Shown here: positions 9,021 through 53,947 of the stretch, piece after piece
Position numbering within the stretch: the first letter of the stretch is position 1
Layout: every line of letters begins with the position of its first letter
Source of the DNA: Williamsia sp. 1138
GTDB lineage: Bacteria > Actinomycetota > Actinomycetes > Mycobacteriales > Mycobacteriaceae
NCBI RefSeq assembly: GCF_002095435.2
Contig: NZ_MJEJ02000042.1
Location: 1-64,000 of the forward strand
Length of the DNA: 64,000 nt
Reading direction: 5' to 3'
Notes under the pieces: model-generated
Seen by the model: the letters and a program-made list of their open reading frames with translations, nothing else
What the model was told of the DNA's origin: nothing
The model's database searches: none
Position numbers and translations under genes: made by a program

Positions 9021-9043
9021 GTTCCGTCTGAAGGCACAGAAGA

Positions 9044-10693: not shown

Positions 10694-10760
10694 CCCGAAA
10701 ATGGTGGGTTCTGGCGGCCGCCACCTGGGGAAACGCTCGCCAGAACCCACCAAGATCGGG
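10694..10760. repeat. 67-bp palindromic intergenic element, copy A
   Basis: Arms TGGTGGGTTCTGGCG (10702-10716) and CGCCAGAACCCACCA (10738-10752) are perfect. The centre is 21 bp and contains CCACCTG. The 8-bp flanks begin CCCGA and end TCGGG. The element abuts the stop codon (TCA on plus at 10761) of the nuclease gene and lies 1 bp from the -35 box of the MerR promoter. Other copies are at 33760, 38890 and 42789. Confidence 0.9.
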
Positions 10761-11537
10761 TCAGCAGGTGGAGAGGACCTTCGTCATGGCGTCCTTTTCT
10801 GCAGCGGTGACCCAGAGTCCGTACCGGGCTTTGACGTCGATCTGCCTGCTGACGTAGGTACAGCGGTAGGCCTTGTTCGGCGGTAACCAGGTGGCGGTGT
10901 CGCCGTTGCTCTTCTGCTGATTCGTCGGGCCATCGGTGGCCTGGAGGTTGGCCGGGTCATTGGCGAAGTCGGTGCGCGTGGCCGTGTCCCATTGTGCGGC
11001 GCCCTTCTGCCAGGCGTCTGACATCGCGACCACGTGGTCGATCTGCACTGCGGGAGAGGTCTTTTCGCCACGGAGGAAGTCGATGGTCTTACCGGAATAG
11101 GGGTCGACGAGGACTCCGGAGAGCACCACGCACCCCCGGGACCCGGGTTTGACGGAGACGGCTGTGAGGTCGCGGCGCAAGATGTCGTTGCGGGTGTCGC
11201 ACCCGTTGTGGCCGTCGGGGACGTTGACGTCGTCGGTCCAGGCCTGCCCGAACTCGCTGCGTTCATAACCGGTTCTCGGGGCGCGTCCCTTGACGTCGAG
11301 CGCGGCGAGTTGTGTCCGGGCCGAGGAGGGCGAGGCCGGGGCCGTCGGTGCGGCTGCCGTCGGCGATGAGAGTGGGGGAGAGGCTGATGTCGTCGGTGCC
11401 GCGGCCTCGTCCCGGTCGCCGCCTCCGGCGTTCAGGCCGGCCCAGGTCAGGCCGGCGATGACCACCAGCGCGATCAGCCCCACCGGCCCGGCGACCCGGC
11501 CTCGCGGACGGTGTGATCGGGGTTTGCGTCGGTTCAC
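10761..11537 (-). CDS. Secreted HNH-type nuclease (DUF1524/GmrSD C-terminal-like)
   Basis: 258 residues from GTG 11537, with CAGAGGAGAAC as ribosome site. Residues 1-20 are basic, 20-40 a single membrane or signal segment (VGLIALVVIAGLTWAG), then a 40-residue Ala/Ser/Pro/Thr linker. The nuclease domain carries IDHVVAMSDAW, with the Asp-His of a His-Me finger, and NDPANLQATDGPTNQQKSNGD with the second half of the motif. Cysteines CDTRND, GCVV, YRCTY and a terminal Cys suggest disulfides outside the cytoplasm. Such proteins are widespread in Mycobacteriales; a role in nutrient uptake or competition is inference. Confidence 0.8.
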   Translation of the reverse strand: MNRRKPRSHRPRGRVAGPVGLIALVVIAGLTWAGLNAGGGDRDEAAAPTTSASPPLSSPTAAAPTAPASPSSARTQLAALDVKGRAPRTGYERSEFGQAWTDDVNVPDGHNGCDTRNDILRRDLTAVSVKPGSRGCVVLSGVLVDPYSGKTIDFLRGEKTSPAVQIDHVVAMSDAWQKGAAQWDTATRTDFANDPANLQATDGPTNQQKSNGDTATWLPPNKAYRCTYVSRQIDVKARYGLWVTAAEKDAMTKVLSTC

Positions 11538-11560
11538 GTTCTCCTCTGTGGTGGCATCGA

Positions 11561-11566
11561 TACTGT
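11561..11566 (+). promoter_or_regulatory. -10 box TACTGT for the THUMP-like methyltransferase
   Basis: TACTGT ends 7 nt before GTG 11574 and no ribosome site precedes that start. The divergent nuclease gene starts only 36 nt away at 11537. Confidence 0.45.
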
Positions 11567-11573
11567 TATACCT

Positions 11574-12764
11574 GTGGGCTACGACTTCACGATCGACGAC
11601 GTTGCATTCTTGCGTTCCGAATCCGGGCGCAGGGCTCTGGAATTCGCTGTTTCGCTTGCGCTCCAATCCGATACGATGCTCGCCGACATCGAGAAGCTGT
11701 CGCGCCGATTTCCCGACCATCAGGCTGCGCTGGCAGAGACCGTCACTTGTCGTCGTAAGGCGGCCGGGAAACTCCGCGATCCCGGACGGCTGTTGCTCAC
11801 GAACGATGCGCTTCAACAGGCCACCGCGTATCCGGTTGCCGAACACCGTGCCGCCGAGATCGCGGACCGATATCCGGGTGCCACCGTCCACGATGTCACC
11901 TGTTCCATCGGCGCCGATCTCGCAGCGCTGACGGCGGCCGAAGGCATCGCCGGAGCGATCGGCAGCGATCTCGACCTGGTCCGGCTCGCGATGGCCGCAC
12001 ACAACGTCCCTGCCGCGACGCTGGCCCGCGCCGATGCGCTGACACCGACTTCCGACGCGGATGTCGTGATCGCCGATCCGGCCCGCCGCAGTGGTGGGAG
12101 GCGCAGTTTTCGGATCGAGGACACCGAACCTCCGCTCTTGGAGGTACTCGCGGTGTACGCCGGCAGGCCGCTCGTGGTGAAATCAGCGCCGGGCGTGGAC
12201 TATCGGCTCCTGCGGGACCGATACGGATTCGCAGGCGAGGTGCAGTTGGTGTCGTTGAACGGGGGTGTCCGAGAGGCCTGTCTGTGGTCGCACCCCAGCC
12301 CCGGTGTGCGCCGCCGCGCAACGGTGATCCGCACGGGTGGAGGTAGTTTCGAGATCACCGACGCCGCCGACGATACGACGGATGTGGATGACGCCGGAAC
12401 CTGGATCATGGATCCCGATGGCGCCGTGATCAGAGCCGGTCTGGTTCGCCACTTCGCAAAGATGCACGGTCTGTGGCAACTCGATCCGCAGATCGCCTAC
12501 CTCAGCGGCGACGCACTACCGGTCGGGGAGCGTGGCTGGCGGGTGATCGAGCAGATGGGGTTCTCCGAGAAGAACCTCAAGCGACGACTGGCCGAATTGG
12601 ACTGCGGCACTGTCGAGATCATGGTGCGCGGCGTCGACCTGGACCCCGATCGGCTGCGTAAGCGACTCAAGCTCACGGGGTCCCGATCGCTGGCAGTCGT
12701 GATCACCCGCATCGGCAGGGCCGGTGCGATGTTCATCTGCGAGGCCGGGGTGCGGCAGACCTAG
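11574..12764 (+). CDS. SAM-dependent methyltransferase with C-terminal THUMP-like domain
   Basis: 396 residues, matching Rv3037c in position. The middle part has a Rossmann methyltransferase core (VHDVTCSIGADLAAL as motif I, GSDLDLVRLAMAAHN as the acidic loop, DADVVIADPARR as motif IV). The DPAR element resembles base-modifying RNA/DNA enzymes. The last about 75 residues (FSEKNLKRRLAELDCGTVEIMVRGVDLDPD) match a THUMP-like C-terminal domain, suggesting an RNA substrate. The N-terminal 80 residues are helical. The start is GTG, probably leaderless. The target is not known to me. Confidence 0.8.
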   Translation: MGYDFTIDDVAFLRSESGRRALEFAVSLALQSDTMLADIEKLSRRFPDHQAALAETVTCRRKAAGKLRDPGRLLLTNDALQQATAYPVAEHRAAEIADRYPGATVHDVTCSIGADLAALTAAEGIAGAIGSDLDLVRLAMAAHNVPAATLARADALTPTSDADVVIADPARRSGGRRSFRIEDTEPPLLEVLAVYAGRPLVVKSAPGVDYRLLRDRYGFAGEVQLVSLNGGVREACLWSHPSPGVRRRATVIRTGGGSFEITDAADDTTDVDDAGTWIMDPDGAVIRAGLVRHFAKMHGLWQLDPQIAYLSGDALPVGERGWRVIEQMGFSEKNLKRRLAELDCGTVEIMVRGVDLDPDRLRKRLKLTGSRSLAVVITRIGRAGAMFICEAGVRQT

Positions 12765-33759: not shown

Positions 33760-33826
33760 CCCGAAGATGGGGCCTTTTGGCGGTGCCCACCTGGGCATAT
33801 GGTCGCCAAAAGGCCCCATTTCCGGA
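33760..33826. repeat. 67-bp palindromic intergenic element, copy C
   Basis: Arms ATGGGGCCTTTTGGCG (33767-33782) and CGCCAAAAGGCCCCAT (33804-33819) are perfect over 16 bp. The centre is 21 bp with CCACCTG. The plan equals copies A and B but the arm sequence differs (GCCTTTTGG instead of GGTTCTGG) with matching changes in both arms. It lies between convergent genes, 1 bp from the hydrolase stop codon. Confidence 0.9.
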
Positions 33827-38889: not shown

Positions 38890-38956
38890 CCCGATCTTGG
38901 TGCCTTTTGGCGAGGCCGACCTGGTCTTTTGTTCGCCCGAACCCACCACTTCCGGG
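38890..38956. repeat. 67-bp palindromic intergenic element, copy D (chimeric, decayed)
   Basis: Left arm TTGGTGCCTTTTGGCG is of the copy-C type. Right arm CGCCCGAACCCACCAC is of the copy-A/B type, so the arms no longer pair well. Total length, 21-bp centre (containing CGACCTGG) and flanks fit the other copies exactly. It lies between pfkA and gatB, which run in the same direction. Confidence 0.8.
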
Positions 38957-40474: not shown

Positions 40475-41617
40475 TCAGACGTTGGTGTCGGCGGGACCCT
40501 GCGGCATCGGGATGATGATCACCCGATCATCGGTGGGGCCCGCGGTACCGGTCTGCTTGTTCACCGTGCCGACCTGGAAGAGTCCCGCGGGAACCGCGGT
40601 CAACCGCCCGAGTGCGCCGTAGCGCCGTTCCAGCACGGTGATGGGCTCGGCCGTGGTCGGCTTCTCCTCCGTCGGCGCGGTGATGGCCTGCAATCGCTGA
40701 GTCCTGGTCTGCGAGACCATGATCACCCCGTTGACGGCGGCGCAGCCCGCGGTCTCGGGCTTGTCGGGCCAGGTCCACAGCGTGCGTCCGACGCCGGTCG
40801 GGCTGATCAACTGCAGGCGATCCTCGGCCGGTGCACGATCACTCAGGTACAGGGCGCCGGTGACCACGTCCGGACACAGCGCGGGATTCTGGCCGAGACC
40901 GCTGGTGAGCACCCTCGGCGGAGTGTTGCCACCCGACGACAGATCGGTCACCGACAAGAGTTTTCCGGCCAGTGAGCCCGGATCTGCGGCGGCCGCGGGA
41001 TCGCCTGCGTCGCCGGTGGCCACCAGCAGTTCGCCCGGACTCTTGAAATGGATCGTGCCCATGTTGCCGGTGTCGCCCTTGGGGATACCGGTGAGGATCG
41101 GCTTCGGTACGTCGCCTGGGGCCAGCCGAACCACCCGATTGTCGGTGGGGGTGGTGATGTACGCGTACATCAACTGGTCCTGCGCGTAGTCGGGGGATGG
41201 TGTGAAGTCGAGCAGGCCGCCGTCACCGGAAGCGTCGACGTCGAACGAAGCGATGTCCACCGTCGGACCACCCCGTTTGGTGCGGACGATCTTGCCGCTC
41301 GTGCGCTGGGCCACCACGGTCGACGTGGCGTCCGCGCTGGCAGCGATGAGACCGCTGGTGGCGTCCAAGCAGGTGGCGATCACGGTCGGATCCGGATCGG
41401 GGCAGGGGCCCGTGGGGGCGCCTGGATCCGCGGGCGGTGTGCTCGGCGGCGTCTGTTCCGGCTGCTGCATCGGGGGATTGACGTTGGTGGAGAAGTCGCC
41501 GGCCTCTCGGTTGCGGTCCTGCTCGGCGAACCCGTCGGAACATCCGGTCAGCACCACGGCGGCCGCCACCAGCATGATCACGATCCGCGCGATCGCAGAC
41601 CGGTGGGGCGTTGTCAT
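40475..41617 (-). CDS. lppZ: Lipoprotein with PQQ-type sugar-dehydrogenase-like propeller (LppZ-like)
   Basis: 380 residues from ATG 41617. Signal peptide IARIVIMLVAAAVVLTGC ends in a clear lipobox (LTGC). A Pro/Gln-rich linker follows, then a beta-propeller resembling GSDH/glucose-sorbosone dehydrogenase (GGLLDFTPSPDYAQDQLMYAYITT, GTIHFKSPGELLVATGDAGD). The family key histidine of soluble glucose dehydrogenase is not evident, so enzymatic activity is doubtful. The ATG lies 7 nt behind TAGTGT, predicting a leaderless mRNA. Position equals Rv3006 (lppZ). Confidence 0.82.
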   Translation of the reverse strand: MTTPHRSAIARIVIMLVAAAVVLTGCSDGFAEQDRNREAGDFSTNVNPPMQQPEQTPPSTPPADPGAPTGPCPDPDPTVIATCLDATSGLIAASADATSTVVAQRTSGKIVRTKRGGPTVDIASFDVDASGDGGLLDFTPSPDYAQDQLMYAYITTPTDNRVVRLAPGDVPKPILTGIPKGDTGNMGTIHFKSPGELLVATGDAGDPAAAADPGSLAGKLLSVTDLSSGGNTPPRVLTSGLGQNPALCPDVVTGALYLSDRAPAEDRLQLISPTGVGRTLWTWPDKPETAGCAAVNGVIMVSQTRTQRLQAITAPTEEKPTTAEPITVLERRYGALGRLTAVPAGLFQVGTVNKQTGTAGPTDDRVIIIPMPQGPADTNV

Positions 41618-41624
41618 GGCGTCC

Positions 41625-41630
41625 ACACTA
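41625..41630 (-). promoter_or_regulatory. -10 box TAGTGT of the lppZ-like gene
   Basis: TAGTGT on the minus strand ends 7 nt before ATG 41617; no ribosome site. Confidence 0.5.
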
Positions 41631-41704
41631 CTGATCGGCCGGCGCGAGACGTCTGATCGGGCGCGCCGTGCCCAGGGCAGAGATGCGTTCGACCGACATG
41701 CCTC

Positions 41705-41710
41705 TAAGGT
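41705..41710 (+). promoter_or_regulatory. -10 box TAAGGT of the doxX-like gene
   Basis: TAAGGT ends 7 nt before GTG 41718; no ribosome site. It faces the lppZ-like promoter across 74 bp. Confidence 0.5.
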
Positions 41711-41717
41711 CACTAGG

Positions 41718-42788
41718 GTGACCGAACGAGATCCCGACGGCCAAGGGTCGAGCCCATACGACGAGCCCACCGAACAGATCGAGTTGCCCGTGACGCGGGC
41801 AAACGAGCCTTATCCGGCCGAAGGTGAGACCGGCGCCTACGGATACGCCCCGTACCGGTCGAACAAGGCCGGCCAGGACGAGGCGGCCCGATTCGACGAG
41901 GATCTCGAGGAGACCGAGCAGATCCCCACCCTGCGCAAGCAGGCGGCGAACGATTCTTCCCGGCCGACGTCTGCTGGTTCCGATCCTGCCGACGCGGACC
42001 CGGTCGTGCGCGAGGACATCGCAAACCAAGACACCGATGTCGTCGGCGCCCCGTCTGGCCACACCACCCGGATACCGGCGGGGGTCGTCGACCGCGACGA
42101 CTTCCACCGCGAGTACGGACCCCCGCCGCGCTATGACGATGACGACGACTTCGCGCTGAAGGGCCCTGCCGAACCCGAACCCATCGAGCCGCTCGTCACC
42201 GAGGTTCCCGCCCGCCGCGGCACCCTCGATCTCGGGTTGCTGCTACTTCGCGTCGGCGTCGGTCTGATCGCGATGGCGCACGGCAGTCAGAAGCTGTTCG
42301 GCTGGTGGAATGGTCCGCGCCTCAGCGGATTCGAGGACTACCTCCTGAACGCCGCGAACACCAACATCGGGTTCAGTTCCGATGCCGCGAAGCCACTGGC
42401 GATCCTGGGTGCTCTCTCGGAGACCATCGGTGGCCTCATGCTGGTGCTCGGCCTGTTGACCCCGATCGCAGGCTCGGCGGTGTTGGGCGTGATGACCGTC
42501 GCCGCGGCCTACAAGGCGACTCTCGCCGGCGGCGTGTGGTTCTTTGCCGCCGACCCCGACTTCACCGGCGGCGGAATCGAGTACGAACTGTTCCTGGGTC
42601 TCGCTGCCGCGGTCATCATCCTGACCGGGCCGGGACGCATCTCGCTCGACTTCGGGCGGGGCTGGGCGACGAGGCCGTTCATCGGTTCGGTCGCCTGGCT
42701 GATTGTCGGTATCGCAGCGCCGGTCGTCATCTGGTTCCTCTTCAACGGCACCAACCCGTTCGAATCGCCGGGCAACCCGGTCCCGTAG
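41718..42788 (+). CDS. DoxX-family membrane protein with long acidic N-terminal tail
   Basis: 356 residues. Residues 1-165 are acidic, low-complexity and probably disordered (PPRYDDDDDF near the end). Residues 170-350 contain the DoxX four-helix region (LDLGLLLLRVGVGLIAMAHGSQKLFGWWNGPRLSGFE, LGALSETIGGLMLVLGLLTPIAGSAVLGVMTVAAAYK). Rv3005c, its positional homologue, is the DoxX of a membrane redox complex with SodA and SseA in M. tuberculosis; the same role is inferred here. GTG 41718 is chosen because a TAAGGT box lies 7 nt upstream. The stop codon is followed directly by a 67-bp palindrome. Confidence 0.85.
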   Translation: MTERDPDGQGSSPYDEPTEQIELPVTRANEPYPAEGETGAYGYAPYRSNKAGQDEAARFDEDLEETEQIPTLRKQAANDSSRPTSAGSDPADADPVVREDIANQDTDVVGAPSGHTTRIPAGVVDRDDFHREYGPPPRYDDDDDFALKGPAEPEPIEPLVTEVPARRGTLDLGLLLLRVGVGLIAMAHGSQKLFGWWNGPRLSGFEDYLLNAANTNIGFSSDAAKPLAILGALSETIGGLMLVLGLLTPIAGSAVLGVMTVAAAYKATLAGGVWFFAADPDFTGGGIEYELFLGLAAAVIILTGPGRISLDFGRGWATRPFIGSVAWLIVGIAAPVVIWFLFNGTNPFESPGNPVP

Positions 42789-42855
42789 TCCGAAAGTGGT
42801 GGGTTCTGGCGACCGCGACCTGCGTAAACAGTCGCCAGAACCCACCACAATCGGG
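42789..42855. repeat. 67-bp palindromic intergenic element, copy B
   Basis: Arms GTGGTGGGTTCTGGCGAC (42796-42813) and GTCGCCAGAACCCACCAC (42831-42848) pair perfectly over 18 bp. The element fills the whole space between the doxX-like stop (ends 42788) and the ilvD stop (42856 on plus) with no spare base on either side. It can act as a two-way terminator. Confidence 0.92.
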
Positions 42856-44703
42856 TCAGTCGACCTGTCGGACCGCACCCTTGTCCGCCGAGGTGGCGAG
42901 CTTCGCGTAGGCGCGCAGGGCTGTGGTCACCTTGCGTTCGCGATGCTCTCGCGGCTGCCATGGCCGTTCGGCAGCGTCCATCTTCGCGCGGCGGTCGGCG
43001 AGGACGTCCTCGTCGACGAGGACTTCGAGCTTGCGAGTCTTGACGTCGATCAGGATCTGGTCGCCGTCTTCGATGAGCCCGATGACCCCACCTGCAGCGG
43101 CTTCGGGGGAGATGTGTCCGACCGAGAGTCCGGACGAGCCGCCGGAGAATCGGCCGTCGGTGATGAGCGCACACTTCTTGCCCATGCCGGTGCCCTTCAT
43201 GAACGCGGTCGGGTGCAGCATCTCCTGCATTCCCGGACCGCCCGCGGGTCCTTCGTAGCGCACGACCAGGACCTCGCCGGCCTTGATGGTCTTGCTCAGG
43301 ATCACCTGCACGGCCTCGTCCTGTGATTCCACGACGCGGGCCGGGCCCTGGAAGTGCCAGAGGTCCTCGTCGATACCGGCGGTCTTCAGCACCGCGCCGT
43401 CGACTGCGAGATTGCCCTTGAGTACGCACAGACCGCCTTCGACGGTGTAGGCGTGCTCGAGGTCGCGGATGCAGCCACCCGCAGCGTCGGTGTCGAGGGA
43501 ATCCCAGCGATTCTCGGTCGAGAACGGCGTCGTGGTGCGCACCCCTCCCGGAGCGGCGTGGAACAGTTCGAGCGCCTCGTCGGTGGCGGTGCCGCTGCGG
43601 ATGTCCCAGTCGTCCAGGAACGTCGCAAGGGTCGGCGAGTGAACGGTACTGGTGGTGTCGTCGATGAGACCCGCGCGGCGAAGCTCGCCGAGGATGGCCG
43701 CGATTCCACCGGCCCGGTGAACGTCCTCCATGTGGTAGTCGGAGTTGGGTGAGACCTTCGACAGACACGGGACCTTGCGGCTGATGTCGTCGATGACGCC
43801 GAGGTCGAAGCCCTCGACCTCGCCCTCCTGTGCGGCGGCGAGTACGTGCAGGACGGTGTTGGTGGATCCACCCATGGCGACATCGAGGGCCATGGCATTC
43901 CGGAAAGCTGTGGGGGTGGCGATGTTTCGGGGGAGCACCGACTCGTCCTCGTCGCGGTAGTAGCGCAGTGCTGCCTCGACGATCACCTGGCCTGCCTTGG
44001 TGAACAGTCCCCGCCGCGCTTCGTGCGTGGCCAATGTCGAACCGTTGCCCGGCAGGGCCAGACCCAGTGCCTCGGTCAGGCAGTTCATCGAGTTGGCGGT
44101 GAACATGCCCGAGCACGATCCGCAGGTGGGGCATGCTGCCAGCTCGACTTCGCGGAGGGCGGCCTCGTCGACGGCGTCGTTGGCCGACGCGGAGATCGAG
44201 GTGATCAGGTCCGAGGACGGATGGACGGTGCCATCGACGACGACGGCCTTGCCCGCCTCCATGGGCCCACCGGACACGAAAACGGTGGGGACGTTGAGCC
44301 GCATCGCGGCATTGAGCATCCCGGGGGTGATCTTGTCGCAGTTCGAGATACAGACCAGGGCGTCGGCGGTGTGCGCGTTCACCATGTATTCGACGGAGTC
44401 CGCGATGATCTCACGGCTCGGTAGCGAATAGAGCATCCCGTCGTGGCCCATCGCGATCCCGTCGTCGACGGCGATCGTGTGGAACTCCCGGGGCACACCA
44501 CCGGCGGCGCGGACGGCATCGGCGACGATCTCACCGACATCCTTGAGGTGGACGTGGCCGGGTACGAATTGGGTGTACGAATTGGCTATCGCGACAATCG
44601 GTTTGCCGAAGTCGTCGTCGGTCATGCCGGTGGCGCGCCAGAGCGAGCGCGCTCCGGCTGCGTTACGACCGACGGTGGTTGTGCGTGACCTCAACTGCGG
44701 CAT
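42856..44703 (-). CDS. ilvD: Dihydroxy-acid dehydratase
   Basis: 615 residues. Iron-sulfur enzyme of valine, isoleucine and pantothenate synthesis (dihydroxy-acid to keto-acid). Motifs: [16 protein letters not shown] and [14 protein letters not shown] give two of the cluster cysteines. [26 protein letters not shown] and [20 protein letters not shown] are family signatures. The length is that of the E. coli-type enzyme, longer than the 575-residue Rv0189c type. It sits tail to tail with the doxX-like gene and is oriented away from ilvBNC. The 5' region (44704-44777) shows no obvious attenuator. Confidence 0.97.
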
Positions 44704-53879: not shown

Positions 53880-53947
53880 AATTCGCGCCACCTCCGTGCG
53901 TTCGCGCCAGTTGCAGCTGGCGCGTCCGCATGCAGGTGGCGCGAATT
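53880..53947. repeat. Nested palindrome between convergent genes (copy F)
   Basis: Outer arms AATTCGCGCCACCT (53880-53893) and AGGTGGCGCGAATT (53934-53947) pair perfectly. Inner arms CGCGCCAG (53903-53910) and CTGGCGCG (53917-53924) pair around a 6-nt loop. 9-nt spacers separate outer and inner arms. TTT follows on plus. The plan matches the palindrome at 12770-12845. Confidence 0.85.

Follow-up and report, generated by a model that had tools for sequence, protein, structure and literature searches.

In Mycobacteriales, the TRIT motif of Mycobacterium tuberculosis terminators lies at gene ends, is conserved in sequence and resembles a terminator. The 67-bp palindrome analysed here may be like it, as a conserved gene-end motif in Mycobacteriales. 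How transcripts end in high-GC Actinobacteria is an open question, to which a defined, numerous and covarying gene-end hairpin is relevant. In mycobacteria, passages of a review (PMC12288462) describe intrinsic terminators as scarce and place I-shaped terminators, which lack a U-tract, within 50 bp of the stop codon. Like bidirectional and I-shaped mycobacterial terminators, the 67-bp element has a GC-rich hairpin that comes right behind the stop codon and can fold on either strand. It differs from them in its conserved loop and clamp, in the lack of a U-tract and in being a dispersed homologous family, and its role as a terminator is putative.

A second likeness is to REP/BIME elements: the 67-bp element is short, extragenic, hairpin-forming, present in about 100 copies and a target of IS110-family insertion, as portions of PMC1525189 and PMC11208160 report for REPs. 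It is set apart from them by its 67-bp length, its 21-bp centre and its tie to stop codons, and by having neither an enriched GT(A/G)G head nor a Y1 (RAYT) gene in nine genomes. A bridge-RNA guide arrangement is described for IS110-type elements in sections of PMC11208160, and the leader of the insertion sequence (IS) found in our palindromes is predicted to be similar. This IS resembles the IS621-like bridge-RNA elements of E. coli REPs in its protein (DEDD plus Transposase_20), in its CT-consistent junctions, in its insertion into a palindrome arm and in guide-like matches in its leader, which are predicted here. In contrast to IS621 in REPs, the palindrome that receives this IS is without the REP features that we tested, and two junctions, one among the five on the left and one among the five on the right, fall outside a recognisable palindrome. 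Finally, template switching is described in part of PMC8604942 as homogenising arms and inverting spacers.

A dispersed family of 67-bp palindromes

The window, that is the whole stretch of 64,000 nucleotides from Williamsia sp. 1138 that was analysed, contains four copies of 67 bp, as an earlier note on this DNA had reported. The copies, and the parts and neighbours of the fourth, are:

10694..10760, + strand: copy 1, 67-bp palindrome, arms 15/15; 87.7 bits with covariance model R1
33760..33826, + strand: copy 2, arm type TGGGGCCTTTTGGCG, arms 15/15
38890..38956, + strand: copy 3, decayed arms, 11/15
42789..42855, + strand: copy 4, 67-bp palindrome with ACCTG on the + strand; 88.4 bits with R1
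42797..42812, + strand: main stem (16 bp) of copy 4, 5' strand, element columns 9-24
42818..42822, + strand: conserved ACCTG in the centre of copy 4, columns 30-34
42832..42847, + strand: main stem of copy 4, 3' strand, element columns 44-59
41253..42788, + strand: DoxX-domain protein gene upstream of copy 4; its stop codon adjoins the element
42856..44625, - strand: convergent dihydroxy-acid dehydratase family gene (IlvD/Edd domains); its stop codon adjoins copy 4

Copy 4 fills the gap between the two convergent stop codons with 0 spare bases, and the 18-bp perfect arms claimed for it appear in its fold as 18 consecutive stem pairs. Copy 1 adjoins the stop of an open reading frame at 10761-12002 (- strand), which was missed by our gene script and had left this copy labelled divergent. 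Copy 2 lies between convergent genes, at distances of 11 and 1 bp from their stops, and copy 3 between co-directional genes, 8 bp past a stop codon. Fold energies of three window copies are -43.8 to -52.7 kcal/mol; the copy at 38890 has a weak fold (z -2.3 and -1.5). The arms match at 15 of 15 positions in the other three copies and at 11 of 15 in this one. Elsewhere in the window, inverted repeats at 9038, 49245 and 58711, with a 12-13 bp centre and T-runs at the stem end, resemble ordinary terminator hairpins, and a nested inverted repeat at 53884-53930 (CGCGCCACCTCCGTG...CATGCAGGTGGCGCG, enclosing a second one) lies outside the 67-bp family.

Of 60 copies from the same genome, 53 have exactly the 67 bp of the 8+15+21+15+8 plan in the earlier note (model boundaries), but a different division describes the element better. 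In these 53 copies, a clamp (columns 2-5 paired with 63-66) is separated by a 3x3 internal loop from a 16-bp main stem (columns 9-24 with 44-59); the element carries terminal inverted repeats, and the loop holds a small inner hairpin around ACCT, with columns 28 and 34 paired in all 53 copies (C or T with G) and columns 27 and 35 in 41. Invariant positions are C3, T9, G10, G20, G21, A30, G34, C47, C48, A52, C58, A59, G65 and G66. The ACCTG core, said to be kept in all copies, is present in all four in the window and exact in 47 of the 53, of which 31 have an exact CCCGA flank and 28 an exact TCGGG flank. Wobbles at column pairs 22-46 and 24-44 are mostly G-T when read on the ACCTG strand (29 copies, against 2 with A-C), tallies that count sequences and not independent events.

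Covariation was assessed in 68 sequences (51 from the same genome, 7 from the genus and 10 from other genera). Two 67-bp copies of the same genome that were truncated where a stretch ended did not enter this set, nor did 13 loci of the series L056-L085 (30 in all): seven from the genus and six with weak or off-length matches. Pairing occurs in 94.0% of cells, against 32-47% in slid controls. Both sides have changed in 15 of 22 pairs, and cells changed on both sides number 155 versus 47.5 after shuffling, a comparison that does not amount to a probability because the aligned sequences are related. The arms thus covary strongly, and the clamp and 16-bp stem are preserved.

R1, the covariance model, was built from 10 copies. 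On the 6.08-Mb genome it gave at least 147 matches on both strands, at least 100 of them in distinct places at E <= 0.01. Sixty stretches of this genome plus the window (1.243 Mb, with contigs chosen partly for known R1 matches) contain 31 distinct copies, of which three are interrupted by an IS. Separately, one 21.6-bit match (L272:5059) was dropped. All nine genus genomes have matches, from 64 to at least 150 per genome. In a family-wide sample, 25 of 301 genomes match at E <= 1e-5, representing 5 of 31 genera with the own genus included, and in an order-wide sample 4 of 298 match at E <= 1e-6, one being the genome itself and one a weak single match outside the family. Lone weak matches of this kind in other genera may be due to chance. 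In Tsukamurella and one further genus the 67-bp plan is kept with different arms, and the Tsukamurella copies retain the ACCTG centre. A pattern scan of contigs returned 3 Tsukamurella records only, from a set that may omit the window's near relatives.

The sampled contigs contain 40 palindromes with 15-bp arms (at least 13/15 matched) and a 21-bp centre; one shuffle gave on average 3.7 for each centre length. The count alone does not single out the 21-bp centre, because centre lengths of 5-9 bp are about as numerous in the unshuffled contigs (34-39 each). In contrast, ACCTG or CAGGT occurs within 16 of the 40 palindromes with a 21-bp centre and in 0 at centre lengths of 5-9 bp. A scan built on the ends that the earlier note had proposed, TGGCG-N19-23-CGCCA, was uninformative, with 218 matches versus 199 in the reversed control. 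The family that the note had proposed, and had staked on copy number and on shuffled sequence, withstood that comparison, with at least 100 places in this genome and members in 9 of 9 genus genomes and in other genera. The dispersed 67-bp palindrome family is real. One exact element pattern was found in 0 viral contigs and a 67-bp query matched no plasmid or phage, searches that diverged copies could escape. Rfam, run on the window and three further loci, gave two tRNAs and no family at gathering score at the element copies; around 42789 its one weak match was mir-1909, at 21.9 bits versus 80 required. A literature search by title and abstract opening found no description of the element, which may be in print elsewhere.

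Placement at gene ends and a possible role at transcript ends

Placement was examined for 60 copies from the same genome, 28 from the stretch sample and 32 from stretches or loci chosen for holding copies; the three IS-split copies were excluded, and genes were called by our own codon-usage script, which missed at least one gene. By these calls, 38 copies lie between convergent, 19 between co-directional and 3 between divergent genes. Listed against stop codons, as the earlier note had proposed, 56 of the 57 copies that have an adjacent stop are within 15 bp of it (8 of the 56 run into the called gene), compared with 7.3% of random non-overlapping placements in gaps. Both stops are this close in 34 of the 38 convergent copies, or in 33 without a copy that extends 28 bp into a gene. 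Of the 31 copies in the stretch sample, 14 are convergent versus a length-weighted expectation of 13% (p 1e-5). Of 16 examined loci in other genera, 14 have a stop codon no more than 15 bp away, 12 are convergent, and 2 are not near a stop; these loci (which exclude L079, L081-L085, L304, L311 and L312) are partly orthologous to each other, and the script that called their genes had been trained on the window's genome.

In the best reading of these data, which we regard as probable though far from settled, the family consists of dispersed 67-bp two-way gene-end hairpins without a U-tract, maintained partly by template switching. Transcripts from either side would fold the hairpin just past the stop codon, and the hairpin would define the 3' end of the mRNA for both directions of transcription. 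It would act either as a terminator of the I-shaped kind, which has no U-tract, or as a block to 3' exonucleases after Rho-dependent termination. Most copies would be inherited at their original sites. During replication, template switching from one arm to the other would keep the arms matched and would now and then invert the centre; swaps of arm type would come from exchange between copies. A two-way 3'-end hairpin is favoured because of the stop-codon adjacency, the foldability on both strands and the covariation.

A GC-rich stem-loop follows the stop codon, as expected of an intrinsic terminator, but the columns that follow the stem contain no T-run in the 53 own copies, and a terminator search of 42500-43100 found 0 sites. 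The suggestion of a two-way terminator has support from placement and covariation but not from a U-tract. Canonical terminators were called at 5 of 36 palindrome gene ends and at 37 of 531 others (p 0.17), and mutual exclusion between the two was rejected. A plain intrinsic terminator is disfavoured because there is no U-tract, no exclusion with canonical terminators and a conserved loop. Nothing in a plain hairpin explains why ACCTG is conserved, why the centre has a fixed length or why a clamp is present.

These features could be accounted for if the element were instead a binding site, with a putative protein or RNA-binding factor reading the ACCTG centre in the hairpin or cruciform; the roles that we name for such a factor are termination, 3'-end processing and DNA organisation at convergent genes. 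The near-constant ACCTG and 67-bp length, the near-invariant clamp, the conservation of the centre in Tsukamurella though the arms have changed and the bias of wobbles toward G-T on the ACCTG strand all point this way. However, the factor is hypothetical, the wobble counts represent sequences rather than independent events, the centre flips at orthologous sites, and orientation relative to the gene is variable (opposite in 13 and same in 6 co-directional copies, p 0.17). We consider a binding site of this kind unlikely. The idea of a strand-specific RNA was likewise set aside, the orientation bias being non-significant and the wobble asymmetry a matter of sequence counts only.

The two-way hairpin and the factor might also be combined, in a putative factor-read, strand-symmetric gene-end module of Mycobacteriales that sets the 3' ends of both convergent genes. 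In such a module the stem would be free to vary, the ACCTG loop and the CCCGA/TCGGG clamp would be retained for factor binding, and the centre could flip through template switching with function kept. This proposal is speculative and we doubt that it is correct; if true, it would add a third mode of ending transcripts to the two known from U-tract intrinsic terminators and from Rho.

Orthologous sites and mobility

The preferred reading, that of two-way gene-end hairpins maintained partly by template switching, bears on what is seen at orthologous sites. Three window sites were compared in eight relatives. At these sites the genome itself, G007, G005 and G002 have copies in one shared orientation. 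In more distant relatives the centre is reversed, mostly with arms of another type, in four genomes at the 33760 site (G001 was not resolved) and in five at the 38890 site. The 42789 site has the palindrome in 3 of 8 relatives and other sequence in the remaining five. By eye, another inverted repeat is visible in each of these five: in G006, G004, G008 and G003 the gap is about 100 bp and contains the inverted repeat GGGCCGCCGGGGGCATATGTCCCTCGGCGGCC or near (loci L090-L093, L098, L104 and L105), and in G001 (L095, L106) a yet different one surrounds ACGAGCCACATATTTGTGGCTCGT. Sequence partly similar to the GGGCCGCCGGGGGCATATGTCCCTCGGCGGCC repeat is also found at site 22 of G002 (L175), and this repeat is possibly a second gene-end hairpin family.

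With 25 further sites added, 28 sites were followed in the three relatives G007, G005 and G002, where a copy is present at 23, 23 and 25, respectively; five of the comparisons had no clear outcome. Among the 71 present copies we counted, by eye, 10 flips (G007 sites 1, 8 and 15; G005 sites 1, 16 and 17; G002 sites 5, 12, 17 and 24), of which that at G002 site 24 adjoins 1.9 kb of extra DNA and is perhaps a different copy. Flips that the comparison script assigned to site 22 (G007, G005) and site 10 (G002) are artefacts of its rule and do not enter this count. Extra DNA of about 1.9 kb lies beside the palindrome at this site in both G002 (L259) and G007 (L188). In two flips only the centre is inverted, between arms of like sequence: at site 15 of G007, 20 of 21 centre bases match in the inverted and 4 in the direct sense, and at site 12 of G002 the figures are 19 and 5. 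The other flips carry a different arm type and therefore need exchange with another copy or re-insertion. The orthologous sites preserve natural examples of how short palindromes invert their spacer, swap arms or are deleted. At site 2 of G005 (L232) a tandem repeat, TGTCCGGAGACGAAGCGAAGCGGAGCTCGACCGAAG, flanks the palindrome.

The same comparison weighs on the proposal that this is a mobile REP- or MITE-type palindrome, moved by a transposase acting in trans and left at gene ends by loss of other insertions. Such mobility would fit an element that has terminal inverted repeats and is dispersed in at least 100 copies, copy numbers that vary within the genus (at least 144-150 matches in four genomes versus 64-90 in five) and the variation in arm type and orientation at the same site in different relatives. 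Yet most copies are in place at orthologous sites, and two window sites are occupied even in relatives of about 76% identity. Copies are absent from site 3 (G007, G005), site 18 (G005), site 19 (G007, G005) and site 22 (G002), and the alignments show no clean empty site at any of these six absences; two partial deletions (site 16 in G007, site 23 in G005) end, by eye, at GGGT repeats. No target duplication was seen among the 28 sites in the three relatives. The transposase search covered the Y1 and IS110 families, and PF01797 (Y1/RAYT) matched 0 of 9 genus genomes, with control matches in 5 of 14. Nor is a GT(A/G)G head enriched at the hairpin foot (9 of 60 copies versus 397 of 2000 random placements), and membership in the RAYT-driven REPs was rejected on this result together with the missing Y1 gene. 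The empty-site search that the earlier note had proposed thus yielded no clean insertion, and its suggestion of REP/MITE-like mobility is not supported in the form in which it was made, with no Y1 gene in the nine genus genomes, no clean empty site and most copies inherited in place. We regard a mobile palindrome of this type as quite improbable.

An IS110-family element in the palindrome arms

Four contigs start with the same IS, reading into half a palindrome, and the IS is found at 10 contig ends of this genome (positions 1-1318 of L024-L027; L203, L205, L206 and L211-L213). It looks recent, because the copies are identical over 1318 bp. Its protein belongs to the IS110 family, with PF01548 (DEDD), PF02371 (Transposase_20) and an NF033542 match of 183.5 bits. 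Eight of the 10 junctions, whose left and right sides are unpaired in the assembly, lie within a palindrome arm: four of five left junctions end in CCGATGATGKG plus 1 base (all but C5), and four of five right junctions continue as palindrome from TTYTGGCG (all but C15). All 10 are consistent with a CT core.

Flanking a predicted stem, the leader of the IS has target matches TGATGGG, GGGCCT and CCAAAAG, and donor matches ATAGGAGC and ACTGAG. Of these, TGATGGG does not match in register. For the right target CTTCTGG the leader offers no match of 6 bases, and for the left target with GTGCC the guide region offers none. Because of this register and the two unmatched target variants, the bridge-RNA guide arrangement is put forward as a prediction.

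Among the 8 other genomes of the genus, the only trace of the IS is one 36-bp match in G002. We also ran R1 on 23 other IS110 loci of the genus, where it gave E 0.24 at best. R1 detects the longer right half-palindromes (28-39 bits) and is blind to left half-sites, and this null result is weak evidence because four own loci with known left half-palindromes also gave no match.

That the IS110 element itself created or spread the palindromes might be suggested by the arm junctions with their CT core and by the guide-like leader matches, but this origin is largely refuted, and in our view very improbable, because the palindrome is in all 9 genus genomes and the IS, save for the 36-bp match, in one. 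On balance, the IS110-family element appears to be a parasite of the palindromes rather than their source. Its junctions would extend RNA-guided IS110 insertion to a REP-like class of target in a different host group.
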